A program made the translations under genes and the position numbers. 64,000 nt of DNA, from positions 62,001 through 126,000 of the forward strand of contig CAIWTU010000051.1 of NCBI GenBank assembly GCA_903915655.1, in the 5' to 3' direction. Position 1 is the stretch's first letter. The number at the start of each line of letters is the position of its first letter. A model generated the notes under the pieces. It was not told where the DNA came from and made no database searches. It saw only the letters and a program-made list of their open reading frames with translations. This document shows, piece after piece, positions 47,441-57,210 of this stretch. This DNA comes from an uncultured Geobacter sp. (GTDB lineage Bacteria > Desulfobacterota > Desulfuromonadia > Geobacterales > Geobacteraceae).

Positions 47441-49027
47441 ATGCGCCTGATTAAACTCTATGACACGACCTTGCGTGATGGCACCCAGGCGGAAGACATC
47501 TCGTTTCTTCTGGAAGACAAGCTCCGTATCGCTCGAAAACTCGATGAAGCTGGAATCCACTATATTGAAGGTGGCTGGCCGGGGAGCAACCCTAAAGATG
47601 TGGCGTTTTTCAGGGAAATAAAAAAGGGAAAACTCATTCAGGCTAAAATTGCGGCATTTGGGTCGACCCGCCGGGCGAAAACAACACCCGAAAAAGACCT
47701 GAATATCCGGACCCTGCTGCAGGCGGAAACCGATGCCGTAACCATTTTCGGGAAGACCTGGGATTTCCAGGTCCGTGAGGCGCTCCGTATTTCCCTCGAA
47801 GAGAATCTGGACCTGATTTTTGATTCACTGGAATACCTCAAATCGCGCACGCCCGAGCTGTTTTATGATGCCGAGCACTTTTTTGACGGTTATAAGGCTA
47901 ATCCCGAATATGCCATAAAGACTCTCCTCGCGGCAGAGGCTGCCAGGGTCGATTGCATCGTGCTGTGCGACACCAATGGCGGTACCATGCCTTTTGAGCT
48001 GGAACAGATCATACTGGATGTGCAGAAGCAGATAAGTACTCCGCTGGGCATCCATACCCATAACGATTCCGAGTGTGCTACGGCAAATTCCCTGCATGCT
48101 GTTAATATGGGGGTGGTCCAAGTCCAGGGGACAATCAACGGCTTCGGCGAGCGTTGCGGGAACGCCAACCTCTGTTCGATCATTCCCGCCTTGAAGTTGA
48201 AAATGAAGGTCGATTGTATTTCAGATAGCCAGTTGAAAAAGTTGACTGACCTCTCCCGCTTTGTTTACGAACTCGCTAATCTGGCGCCGAACAAGCACCA
48301 GTCATATGTAGGGAATTCTGCCTTTGCCCACAAGGGGGGCGTACATGTCAGCGCTATTCAACGGCACCCCGAAACATATGAGCATATCCGTCCGGAACTG
48401 GTCGGTAATGCCACCCGGATACTCATTTCAGACCTCTCCGGACGTGCAAATATTCTCGCTAAAGCAGAGGAGTTCAAGATAAACCTGGACAGCAAGGATC
48501 CGGTAACCATTGAAATACTTGACAATATAAAGGAAATGGAAAACCGCGGCTACCAGTTCGAAGGGGCGGAGGCCTCTTTTGAACTCCTTATGAAACGGGC
48601 ACTTGGAACCCATAAAAAATTCTTTTCGATTATCGGCTTCCGTGTTATTGACGAGATAAGGCAGGAGGGTCAGAAGCCCCTCTCGGAAGCAACGATAATG
48701 GTAAAGGTCAGTGGTAAGATCGAGCATACCGCGGCGGAAGGAAGCGGACCGGTCAATGCTCTTGACAATGCGTTACGGAAGGCCCTCGAAAAGTTTTATC
48801 CAAAGTTGAAAGAAGTCAGATTGATCGATTACAAGGTTCGAGTTCTTGCAAGTGGTCAGGGCACTGCCTCGGTAACCAGGGTTTTGATCGAGTCGGGAGA
48901 CAAGGAACACCGTTGGGGGACAGTCGGGGTATCCGAAAATATAATTGATGCTTCTTATCATGCCCTTATTGACAGTATCGAATACAAACTGCATAAGGAT
49001 GAAGAGGCGGAATTGGCCCGGAAATGA
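47441..49027 (+). CDS. cimA: (R)-citramalate synthase
   Basis: Condenses pyruvate and acetyl-CoA to citramalate, the threonine-independent route to isoleucine used by Geobacter. The protein is 528 residues. The DRE-TIM barrel begins [17 protein letters not shown] and contains HTHNDSECA and [14 protein letters not shown]-terminal LeuA-type regulatory domain (about 400-520) is present. The motifs separate it from leucine-pathway LeuA (shorter GTQ-type loop) and from NifV. It overlaps the ComEA-like gene by 4 bp (ATGA). Confidence 0.93.
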
Positions 49028-50000: not shown

Positions 50001-50070
50001 CTTGTCTTGTCTTGTCTTGTCTTGTCTTGTCTTGTCTTGTCTTGTCTTGTCTTGTCTTGTCTTGTCTTGT
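50001..50070. repeat. Perfect tandem repeat, 14 copies of CTTGT
   Basis: Seventy bases consisting of 14 uninterrupted CTTGT units, ending in CTGATC. The unit is 5 bp, so copy-number change would alter spacing or any frame through it. It lies between the zinc-ribbon terminator and the nifB/nifV remnant. Open frames across it on both strands only translate the repeat and are not genes. Confidence 0.98.
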
Positions 50071-50261
50071 CTGATCATTCACTACATTCTATTTTCTCCC
50101 CTTATCACGCTTCCGTATGAGAATACGCATTTCGGGTCTGATATTGATATGGTCCACTGTTCGACGGAGATAGTTCGAGCAACCGGCCGGTCAGTTCTGA
50201 AATTTCGTGCACGTTTAATGCGTTACAGATCTGAAAAATAAAATAATTCCCGGCGGCAATG

Positions 50262-50292
50262 AAGCCCGATAGAGAATCCTCTGCCGGGCTTT
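50262..50292 (+). terminator. Hairpin terminator upstream of the nif remnant
   Basis: AAGCCCG/CGGGCTT with an inner AGAG/CTCT pairing, then TCTCTATTA. No gene remains between the microsatellite and this hairpin, so it may be an orphan terminator or leader attenuator of the former nif transcript. Confidence 0.5.
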
Positions 50293-50340
50293 CTCTATTA
50301 ACCGAACAGGACGGCTGGCCGGTGACGTGGAAAGGAGAAA

Positions 50341-50832
50341 ATTATTGCAACATCATGCAAGGAGAAAAAGATAGAGGGGGATCCCTGTTTTGGAGGGGAT
50401 CATCACAAAAACGGCCGTATGCACCTGCCGGTTGCCCCTCGGTGCAATATCAAGTGCGGTCCCCAGAGGTTTTGCAAAATTTCGCGCTTTGTCGGCAAGG
50501 CCTCACGCTGGCCGGTGCCGAGTTGGAAGGCGGTGGTTGGAGAAAAGGTCTTTTCACACGAGTCGGGCCTGCATACCGATGGCGTCATCAAAAACCCGCT
50601 TAACTATGGAGGCTTTGATCCCGCCGAAGTAGGGCTCAGCCGTCATCTGGTGCTTGGCAAGCATTCCGGGACCAGTGGGCTTCTGGAGCGTTTTAGTCGG
50701 ATCGGGATAACAATCTCCAGGGAAGATGCTTCATCTCTGATGGAGCAGGTAAGGTCTGCAGTTCAAAGGGTAAAAAGACCGTTGAACGATAATGAACTGC
50801 GCAGGCTGCACGAATCGGTTCTCTATCATTAA
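50341..50832 (+). pseudogene. Chimeric nifB-5-prime / nifV-3-prime remnant
   Basis: The frame first reads DPCFGGDHHKNGR then MHLPVAPRCNIKC, the N-terminal radical SAM signature of the FeMo-cofactor enzyme NifB. At about 50455-50465 it switches abruptly to the C-terminal third of homocitrate synthase NifV: SRFVGKASRWPVPSWKAVVG, KVFSHESGLHTDGVIKNP, LVLGKHSG and a normal C-terminus. Radical SAM cysteines 2 and 3 and the whole NifV barrel are missing, so neither activity survives. In the NifB frame no standard start exists between the TGA at 50323 and the ATG at 50419; an extra base in the five-G run (50376-50380) would explain this if the original start was the ATG at 50355. The joint is in frame, as left by an internal deletion. 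Confidence 0.82.
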
Positions 50833-51040: not shown

Positions 51041-51056
51041 TGGCACAACTTATGCT
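51041..51056 (+). promoter_or_regulatory. Sigma-54 (-24/-12) promoter for the porin-like/glnK/amtB genes
   Basis: TGGCAC, then a 5-base spacer, then ATGCT: GG at -24 and GC at -12 are exactly 10 bases apart as RpoN requires. Only the first T of the -12 TTGC is replaced. Predicted start near 51067. The downstream nitrogen genes are classic RpoN targets, and rpoN itself is in the window at 11805. Confidence 0.82.
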
Positions 51057-51207: not shown

Positions 51208-52008
51208 ATGAAAAAGATTACAAAGATTCTTATGCTGGCAATTTCGCTTCTGGTTGTAACCTCAGGGGCTGCCCTGGCAACCCCCTCAACACAGATCTGG
51301 ATCCCATCAACGGATATTCAGGCCTACAAGACGGTCCATCTCGGAATCGACAACTATTTTCGTGCCGCTTCTAATCCGAATAGTGTCACTGGCAGGGACG
51401 CAAACGTAATGGATATCGGTCTGACCGTGGGGGTACTTCCCTTTGAAAAGCTCCAGATGGAAATCGGCTTCGACTTTCTGTCAATGGCCGGGAATCCTAA
51501 CGACAATCATCCCTGGAGCGCCAATGTTAAACTCGGAACCCCTGAAGATTCCCTGTTCAAGTTTTCTCCTGCCATCGCCGTCGGTATGTATAACATCGGG
51601 CCGTCACAATTGGATGATAACGCGCCATTAGTAGTGTCGGGACAGAATATTGTCTACGGGCTTGTTGCCAGGACCCTCCCGGCCATCGGCGCAGTTCCAT
51701 CTCTGGGAAGACTTTCCGCAGGTTACTATCGCGGTGGAGCACGGGCCTTGTGCGATCCGAATGGAGGAACTAACGCCAACAATGGAGTCCTCCTCTCCTG
51801 GGACAGGACCATGAGCGAGATTTCAGACAAACTCTGGCTGGCGGTCGACTACATGGGTGGTAACAACGTCGATGGTGCGGTAAGCTTCGGCGCCTCCTGG
51901 GCGTTCTCAAAAAATGTATCGGTCATCTTTGGCTATGGCATATACAAGGAAATTGCACTCGCTGGAAAAAATACATTTACCACACAGCTGGACATCAATT
52001 TCCCCTGA
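51208..52008 (+). CDS. Putative outer-membrane beta-barrel protein in the ammonium locus
   Basis: A 266-residue exported protein: signal peptide about 1-25 (LAISLLVVTSGAALA), then amphipathic alternating segments (VMDIGLTVGVLPFEKLQMEIG, split), KLWLAVDYMGG, AVSFGASWAFSKNVSVIFGYG and a final strand ending in TTQLDINFP. The aromatic-rich, strand-like character suggests a beta-barrel. I do not recognise a named family. It is first in the sigma-54-controlled unit and lies 79 bp before glnK, so a role in nitrogen-limited growth, such as an outer-membrane channel or sensor, is an inference from position. Confidence 0.72.
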   Translation: MKKITKILMLAISLLVVTSGAALATPSTQIWIPSTDIQAYKTVHLGIDNYFRAASNPNSVTGRDANVMDIGLTVGVLPFEKLQMEIGFDFLSMAGNPNDNHPWSANVKLGTPEDSLFKFSPAIAVGMYNIGPSQLDDNAPLVVSGQNIVYGLVARTLPAIGAVPSLGRLSAGYYRGGARALCDPNGGTNANNGVLLSWDRTMSEISDKLWLAVDYMGGNNVDGAVSFGASWAFSKNVSVIFGYGIYKEIALAGKNTFTTQLDINFP

Positions 52009-52084: not shown

Positions 52085-52426
<342 letters not shown>

Positions 52427-52471
52427 AAATTTACTTTAACGGACAGATATATATAAACAGTGGAGGTATTT

Positions 52472-53830
52472 ATGAAAATCAAAGGTTTGTTGACAACTCT
52501 TTTGGCTGGAACGGCAGCCGTTCTGATGCCGCTTGTGGCGCTTGCAGGAGAAGTGGCAAAGGTCGCAGCACCCCCTGCCAACCCGGCAGCGATACTCAAT
52601 ACCGGTGATACCGCATGGATGCTCATTTCTTCGGCGATGGTACTCCTCATGACCCCAGGTCTGGCCTTCTTCTACGGTGGTATGGTTCGCTCGAAGAACG
52701 TACTTTCGACCATTATGCATTCGTTTGTGGTGATGGGAATTGTGGGAATCCAGTTTGTGGTTATAGGCTATAGTCTCTCTTTCGGACCAGGCAATGATTT
52801 CATTGGCGGTCTTGGGAAGGTGATGCTGAACGGGATAACCCCTGAAACCCTGTTCCAGTATATTCCCACCTCAGCCAATGCGATTCCGGAGTATGTTTTT
52901 GTAATGTTCCAGATGATGTTCGCGATAATCACCATCGGTCTGGTTTCCGGAGCGATTGCCGAGCGGATGAAGTTTTCAGCATGGTGTCTCTTCGCTATTC
53001 TCTGGACAACCCTGGTATACGATCCGATCGCGCACTGGGTATGGGGCGGTGGCTGGCTTATGCAGATGGAAAAGTATGCTGGGCTCCCTAACGCCTTGGA
53101 TTTTGCCGGCGGAACAGTTGTCCACCTTTCTTCCGGTATCTCTGCCCTGGCGCTGATCCTTTTCCTTGGCAAGCGTCACGGCTTTCCCCATGAGCGGATG
53201 GCACCCCATTCCTTGCCCCTTACTCTGCTTGGTGTAGGTCTACTCTGGTTTGGCTGGTACGGTTTCAATGCCGGAAGCGCAGTTGCCTCGAATGGTCTTG
53301 CCGCTCTCGCCTTCACAAATACCACGGTAGCACCCGCTGCCGCCGGTCTTTCCTGGATGTTTGCCGAGTGGATTCATTCCGGCAAGCCAAGCGCCCTAGG
53401 TTTCGGTTCCGGCGTTGTCGCGGGGTTGGTTGGTATTACTCCTGCTGCAGGTTTTGTGACCCCGGGGTGGGGCATCGTCATCGGTCTGGCTGTCGGAGTT
53501 GTCTGTTATGGAGCAGTTCTAGTCAAGGCCAAGCTGAAATATGACGATTCCCTTGATGCATTCGGCGTTCACGGGGTCGGAGGAACTTTCGGCGCAATCG
53601 CTACCGGTGTCTTTGCCACGGTAGGCGCTACCGGCCTGATTATGGGTAATGTCAAGCAACTCCTCACCCAGTTGCTGGCGGTGGGCGCTTCGGCTGCTTA
53701 CGCCTTTATCGTGACCTGTATCCTCGCTTTCATCATCGATAAGACCATCGGCCTCAGGGTTGAAAAAGAAGACGAGATTGTCGGTCTTGACCAGACTCAG
53801 CACTCCGAATCGGGATATAATCTGTTCTGA
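52472..53830 (+). CDS. amtB: Ammonium transporter AmtB
   Basis: A 452-residue ammonium channel with an N-terminal signal-like helix (about 1-23) and 11 membrane helices. AWMLISSAMVLLMTPGLAFFYGGMVR (split) and the pore histidines in GGTVVHLSSG and FGVHGVGGT are present. The ATG at 52472 sits after TGGAGG; an in-frame GTG 12 bases earlier overlaps that ribosome site and is rejected. It is regulated by GlnK from the same transcript. A hairpin follows 55 bp downstream. Confidence 0.97.
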   Translation: MKIKGLLTTLLAGTAAVLMPLVALAGEVAKVAAPPANPAAILNTGDTAWMLISSAMVLLMTPGLAFFYGGMVRSKNVLSTIMHSFVVMGIVGIQFVVIGYSLSFGPGNDFIGGLGKVMLNGITPETLFQYIPTSANAIPEYVFVMFQMMFAIITIGLVSGAIAERMKFSAWCLFAILWTTLVYDPIAHWVWGGGWLMQMEKYAGLPNALDFAGGTVVHLSSGISALALILFLGKRHGFPHERMAPHSLPLTLLGVGLLWFGWYGFNAGSAVASNGLAALAFTNTTVAPAAAGLSWMFAEWIHSGKPSALGFGSGVVAGLVGITPAAGFVTPGWGIVIGLAVGVVCYGAVLVKAKLKYDDSLDAFGVHGVGGTFGAIATGVFATVGATGLIMGNVKQLLTQLLAVGASAAYAFIVTCILAFIIDKTIGLRVEKEDEIVGLDQTQHSESGYNLF

Positions 53831-53885
53831 TCAATATCGCGGCATAAGGTCTTCAATAATTGGAAAGACTGGAACTGTTCTGTCC

Positions 53886-53914
53886 AGAAAGCCGCCTGTT
53901 TCAGGCGGCTTTCT
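53886..53914 (+). terminator. Terminator after amtB
   Basis: AGAAAGCCGCCTG pairs with CAGGCGGCTTTCT around a TTT loop, a 13-bp perfect stem. The T-run is brief (TTTCT), but stem stability and position make termination likely. Confidence 0.8.
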
Positions 53915-53940
53915 CAGTCTGTAACTGTGAAAAACGCCGC

Positions 53941-54156
53941 CTTGGCCCCGGAATTCCTGATGCTGTTATGGAAAGGATTTACGAACCATTTTTCAGCACC
54001 AAGCAGCCTGGAGAGGGTACCGGCCTCGGCCTCTTTATTACCATCAAAATTATGGAGGCGCTGGGTGGGCGTATGGAAGTTGAAAGTATCGAAGGAGAAG
54101 GCACCTCTTTTACCCTGCTGTTGCCGATAAAACCTGCTGAGCCGCTCGAAATATAA
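53941..54156 (+). pseudogene. C-terminal stub of a histidine kinase
   Basis: The frame encodes only the last 70 or so residues of a histidine kinase ATPase domain: GPGIPDAVMERIYEPFFSTK, then [20 protein letters not shown] and a normal end. HisKA, N box and sensor are missing, and the amtB terminator lies immediately upstream. It is a remnant, probably of a kinase gene once downstream of amtB. Confidence 0.8.
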
Positions 54157-56824: not shown

Positions 56825-57210
56825 GGGATTATTGTAGCGGATACTCTTTTTCATTGCCAGAGAAAGATGCCAAGGAGCAATTTTCAACCTGGCCCGGCCA
56901 TTCTTTCTGCCTACTTGTGCGGCGTACCGATGTCCGCCTCGGAGCAACCCCTTGATTCCCTTGCCGGTAGCAAAAATTCCCGCTTTCCGAATCGGCAACC
57001 GATAGCTTCTGATCCAGAGTTTCCGGATGGAAGCCAGGTAATATAAATGTTTGTCTGTTTTCCATGGACACTCTTAACTCTGCGAGTTATAAGTATCAAG
57101 TTTGATATTCTATTCAAAATCAAGAAAACAAATCCAGAATTTATTACTTTGAGGCTCTTGCAAAAAGATTGTCATCCCCTAGCCTCTTTCAAAAGGATAT
57201 TAACAGAATA
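56825..57210. other. Divergent intergenic region between two radical SAM genes
   Basis: A 386-bp stretch with no supported gene; the open frames are short and unlike known proteins. A small hairpin TAACTC-TGC-GAGTTA lies near 57075-57090, and the sequence turns AT-rich from about 57090 to 57210, as expected of a promoter region for the plus-strand gene. Confidence 0.5.

Follow-up and report, generated by a model that had tools for sequence, protein, structure and literature searches.

Systems built of many interacting parts, nitrogen fixation among them, are considered to resist piecemeal replacement. Where nif genes are controlled by GnfK and GnfR, this control acts through an antitermination mechanism. 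In xenologous gene displacement, a homologue acquired by horizontal transfer takes the place of a native gene or operon. GnfK/GnfR regulation of nif genes has been described for Geobacter sulfurreducens (GSU0941 and GSU2822; PMC7962754), and the accessible part of a report on Geobacterales nif clusters (Geomonas and Geobacter) indicates that cluster structure differs between as well as within genera (PMC10746287). A literature search for ANTAR control in Geobacter or for nif displacement with remnants yielded no papers.

The locus described here lies in a stretch of 64,000 nucleotides (the window) on contig C51 of an uncultured Geobacter genome. The assembly contains deletion scars of native nif genes together with an intact second nif set (hereafter, the island) on contigs C29 and C24, which overlap at their ends, and NifB, NifV and NifK of the island differ in ancestry from the native copies. 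As in xenologous displacement, the native genes are inactivated and discordant homologues are intact; unlike the usual cases, the regulon involved comprises several operons at different loci, the scars are still readable and losses are found on both sides. The kind of event is known, and it is the completeness of the visible remnants that is unusual. In common with the Geobacterales clusters, the genes concerned include draG, nifB, nifHDK, nifEN, nifX and draT, whereas that account, in its accessible part, describes no single genome with leftovers of a second, displaced set such as those seen here (PMC10746287). The G. sulfurreducens GnfK/GnfR system is resembled in that both the island and a decayed copy encode an ANTAR-domain response regulator, and in that the nifB leaders carry a conserved terminator-like hairpin. 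The names GnfR (for the ANTAR regulator) and GnfK (for the kinase following amtB) are putative. A further parallel is provided by Geobacter sp. AOG1, in which a nifV fragment (residues 1-55; L181 2855-3019) lies upstream of porin-glnK-amtB and an intact nifV lies elsewhere, as here; unlike here, its nifB is intact at its place beside draG. Displacement of nifV has probably occurred more than once in the family.

The chimeric frame and its parent operon

The open frame at 50344-50832 (forward strand, as are all window features below) encodes 162 residues free of stops, and fuses nifB codons 1 to about 39 to the 3' third of nifV. A homology search (NCBIfam) assigned its two halves to two separate families, with residues 7-39 matching NifB (TIGR01290 positions 6-39, E 2.5e-6) and residues 35-155 matching NifV (TIGR02660 positions 244-364, E 1.5e-38). 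Since the first match covers only positions 6-39 of the 441 in its profile, and the second covers positions 244-364 of 365 at 133 bits against a cut-off of 462.9, the frame is a member of neither family. In the Pfam search the sole match was HCS_D2, the post-barrel domain of NifV, with no match to Radical_SAM; the HMGL-like TIM barrel of NifV is entirely absent. The motif of the NifB remnant reads CNIKCGPQRFC, which retains CNIKC and lacks the last of the three cysteines in the CX3CX2C radical-SAM motif. Neither enzyme can work, because this cysteine and the whole NifV barrel are gone. Within the frame, the nifB remnant occupies 50344-50457, the deletion joint falls at 50458-50466 (its position being uncertain by a few bases) and the nifV remnant, reduced to the post-barrel domain, extends over 50467-50832. 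One joint in three would be in frame by chance, so that this property has no value as evidence.

The intact arrangement is found in the sister genome (G001), the sole other genome of the same genus that was compared. Its contig C157 carries, in order, cimA, a comEA-like gene and a draG-like gene (reverse), followed by nifB, a GNAT acetyltransferase gene, a class-I glutamine amidotransferase (GATase) gene, nifV, glnK, amtB, a histidine kinase gene and a suhB-like gene. Window positions 50254-50459 align to the leader and start of the sister nifB, and positions 50462-50803 to the 3' part of its nifV; between these two blocks 3,323 bases of the sister (about 3.3 kb) are absent, comprising the rest of nifB, the GNAT and GATase genes and the first two thirds of nifV. 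To judge from the alignment, two such matches, ordered as in the intact operon, are not attributable to chance. The intact segment is thus framed in the sister by the same neighbours, from cimA (intact in the window at 47441-49027, and the syntenic anchor) to glnK-amtB, as befits a pseudogene derived by deletion. The gene draG is also missing from the window, where the interval in which the sister carries it holds a perfect CTTGT array of 14.4 units (50001-50072).

The chimera, one of several native scars, is therefore a pseudogene that arose when part of the native draG|nifB-GNAT-GATase-nifV operon was deleted. An earlier reading made from the sequence alone (the sequence-only reading) had proposed a single frame that begins as NifB and ends as the C-terminal third of NifV, could yield neither working protein, and marks the deletion of a nifB-to-nifV segment beside glnK-amtB; the two profile matches, the missing cysteine and barrel, and the intact segment at the same place in the sister bear this out. 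No long microhomology is visible at the joint, and convincing microhomology or direct repeats are lacking there because no close pre-deletion sequence exists. Among the 48 family genomes searched, the fusion is unique to this genome, the nifB and nifV matches being separate in the others, and no fusion turned up in a scan of named GTDB genomes, although relatives of NifV did.

Decay at the native loci and on the island

As read from its sequence, the remnant is dead in three ways, namely through the coding deletion, the change of ATG to ATT and a broken -24 element. In the alignment with seven relatives, all of which have ATG, the window has ATT; likewise, the sigma-54 promoter of the former nifB (50207-50221) is degraded, reading GTGCACGTTTAATGC against TGGCACGNTTAATGC in the relatives, with the -24 element altered. 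Signals of both expression and translation are thereby lost. The former nifB leader contains an intrinsic-terminator-like hairpin (50256-50298), which is conserved in relatives and has an eroded T-run in the window. Two otherwise invariant residues are changed in the NifV part (R to W and E to G), which alone argue weakly for decay because the intact island NifV also has two such changes. Nonsynonymous divergence of the remnant does not exceed that of the intact sister gene; since it is not raised, the deletion is probably recent compared with the genus split, whereas no reliable dN/dS can be given because synonymous sites are saturated relative to the relatives. The fairly recent deletion suggested by the sequence-only reading fits this result, and the good preservation that it saw at both termini does not extend to the 5' end, with its altered start codon.

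A perfect TGGCAC-N5-ATGC site of the sigma-54 type (51041-51055) lies further downstream and belongs to porin-glnK-amtB, so that the chimera does stand beside glnK-amtB, as had been claimed, but not under that promoter. The porin-like gene (51208-52008), named by appearance and with no Pfam match, occurs upstream of glnK in most relatives examined and is absent from the sister and from G041. Both glnK (52088-52426) and amtB (52472-53830, counted from the ATG at 52472, with GTG at 52460 as a possible alternative start) are intact. The histidine kinase that follows (53860-54156) is truncated to 98 residues covering part of the ATPase domain only, against frames of 252-293 residues in relatives.

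Further scars occur on other contigs. The native structural cluster likewise reads as a deletion scar, at C122 14588-15635, where nifH (1-79, with an internal TGA), a nifX-like gene (65-97) and draT (53-290) are fused behind the native nifH leader; the draT part shares 81% identity with the sister sequence and 62% with that of the island, and is therefore native. A second gnfR-like copy (ANTAR response regulator; C45 43647-44147, L182 7648-8157) has a segment missing and an internal TAA. Decay is also present on the island itself, where shreds of a porin and of the amtB C-terminus are directly joined (C24 4190-4416) beside an intact histidine kinase with both HisKA and ATPase domains. The window thus keeps porin-glnK-amtB and only a fragment of the kinase, whereas the island keeps the kinase and only shreds of porin and amtB; the losses are complementary, since what is cut on one side is full on the other.

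The second nif set and its ancestry

Contig C29 carries intact nifB, GNAT and nifV genes, along with draG and an ANTAR-domain response regulator (GnfR-like), and contig C24 carries intact nifH, nifD, nifK and nifEN, all above NCBIfam cut-offs, together with a draT-like gene and putative modABC upstream of nifH. Both modABC and draT were recognised from sequence rather than by family search, draT being without an NCBIfam match. The NifB model extends into a C-terminal NifX-like region that is here a separate gene, so that NifB of C29 and NifB of the sister score just short of its cut-off. Overall, the island comprises gnfR, draG, nifB, GNAT, nifV, modABC, nifHDK, nifEN, a nifX-like gene, draT and a histidine kinase; a resolvase lies on C29, and no tRNA was found on the island contigs. 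The two contigs share an exact terminal overlap of 102 bp, and no other overlap appeared among the contig ends tested (part of all ends). When joined, they read draG|nifB-GNAT-nifV-96-114-repeat-modABC-nifHDK-EN, which is the order of genome G007 with modABC and the repeat added. The sequence-only reading had concluded that the genome lost its cofactor genes and kept the ammonium machinery; the assembly contradicts this with intact nifB, nifV, nifHDK and nifEN on an island whose ancestry differs. That reading was correct about the genes of the scar and mistaken about the genome.

For the NifV tree only the NifV part of the chimera was used, since aligning its NifB end as well places the full-length chimera on a long, uninformative branch. 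The remnant groups with the sister and neighbouring genomes (94/93), and NifV of C29 with G007/G009 (99/98); NifB of C29 also groups with G007/G009, and the compact nifB-GNAT-nifV order is common to these genomes and C29. NifK of C24 stands outside the G007/G009 group and is about equally distant from all genera (75-82% identity). Grouping with the sister is rejected by the AU test for C29 NifV (p 0.011), C29 NifB (p 0.0099) and C24 NifK (p 0.018), which indicates an ancestry different from that of the displaced copies, with the caveat that all three island proteins lie on long branches, which can mislead trees.

Intact homologues of the displaced genes are thus present in this assembly (nifB and nifV on C29, nifHDKEN on C24), their co-residence with the scars being argued rather than proven. 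As the assembly is fragmented (171 contigs, 1.66% estimated contamination), co-residence is argued from composition, from dispersed repeats in common and from a single contig overlap. The dispersed repeat that ends both C29 and C24 has a copy in the window (56881-57042), and many dispersed-repeat copies of the two contigs are also found on other contigs of this genome. Furthermore, a 3-kb stretch of C29 (a restriction-enzyme-like frame) is 86-91% identical to C15 (L003 15042-18111; L094 2582-6013). In composition, the distance of the two contigs from the median of the genome corresponds to the 63rd-92nd percentile; this falls within the genome's own range, the edge of which is reached or exceeded by most other genera.

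Probable replacement of the native set and competing explanations

These observations are best explained by a regulon-scale xenologous replacement, in which the native nif set was likely superseded by an island of different ancestry and native GlnK-AmtB was kept. The island would have arrived horizontally and made the native nif genes redundant; the native functions of nifHDK-EN-X-draT, nifB-to-nifV, gnfR and the kinase would then have been lost by deletion, and the porin-glnK-amtB of the island would have decayed. What remains would be a set of mixed origin, in which native GlnK and AmtB may work with the nitrogenase, cofactor and regulatory genes of the island. There is about an even chance of a more far-reaching history, in which one genome came to contain two complete nif regulons and reciprocal loss then reduced them to a mosaic; native GlnK-AmtB ammonium sensing would in that case work with a nitrogenase, cofactor pathway, DraT/DraG switch and GnfR-like regulator of foreign origin, and a readable scar would be left at each native locus.

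The main rival to replacement holds that C24 and C29 are contaminants from another organism, and that the genome truly lost nitrogen fixation and kept glnK-amtB. The fragmented assembly with its estimated contamination, the phylogenetic discordance of the island genes and the distance of both contigs from the median composition would suit it; nevertheless, it is unlikely, as these contigs share dispersed repeats with host contigs (the C15 stretch and the window copy included), their composition falls inside the genome's range, unlike that of most other genera, and the island supplies exactly the genes that the rest lacks, with its porin and amtB, which the rest has, decayed. Somewhat less probable still is an old within-lineage duplicate, of native rather than foreign origin, with one of the two sets pruned later. 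Sisterhood to G001 is rejected for NifB, NifV and NifK, and C29 NifB and NifV share both a grouping and a compact gene order with G007/G009; nevertheless, the island genes fit the nif architecture of the family, its NifK is about equally distant from all genera, and a duplicate that diverged very fast could still give the same tree result.

The chimera itself could be taken for an expressed, functional small protein, given its 162 open codons and its nonsynonymous divergence, which is not raised. The lack of a standard start codon, the broken promoter, the incomplete radical-SAM cluster motif, the missing NifV barrel and the occurrence of the fusion in one genome only make this highly improbable. 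Hardly any credence attaches to an artefact of assembly or binning either: although the assembly is a draft and C122 has a similar joint, the joint in the window lies inside a 142-kb contig, the remnant shows decay of its own in promoter, start codon and residues, and the halves, at 52-74% identity, are not fragments of the C29 genes.

Under replacement, displaced remnants that stand beside their substitutes would show the nitrogenase, cofactor synthesis, DraT/DraG and the ANTAR regulator to have been exchanged, and GlnK and AmtB to have been retained. The case also cautions against equating a nif scar with loss of nitrogen fixation.

The dispersed repeat family of 56881-57042 has many copies in this genome, and some copies at 82-91% identity occur in other genera. 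A nifH-like gene distinct from the Fe protein of the main set, scoring below the NifH cut-off (267 bits), lies next to an ABC-type ATPase match at C121 4804-5604.
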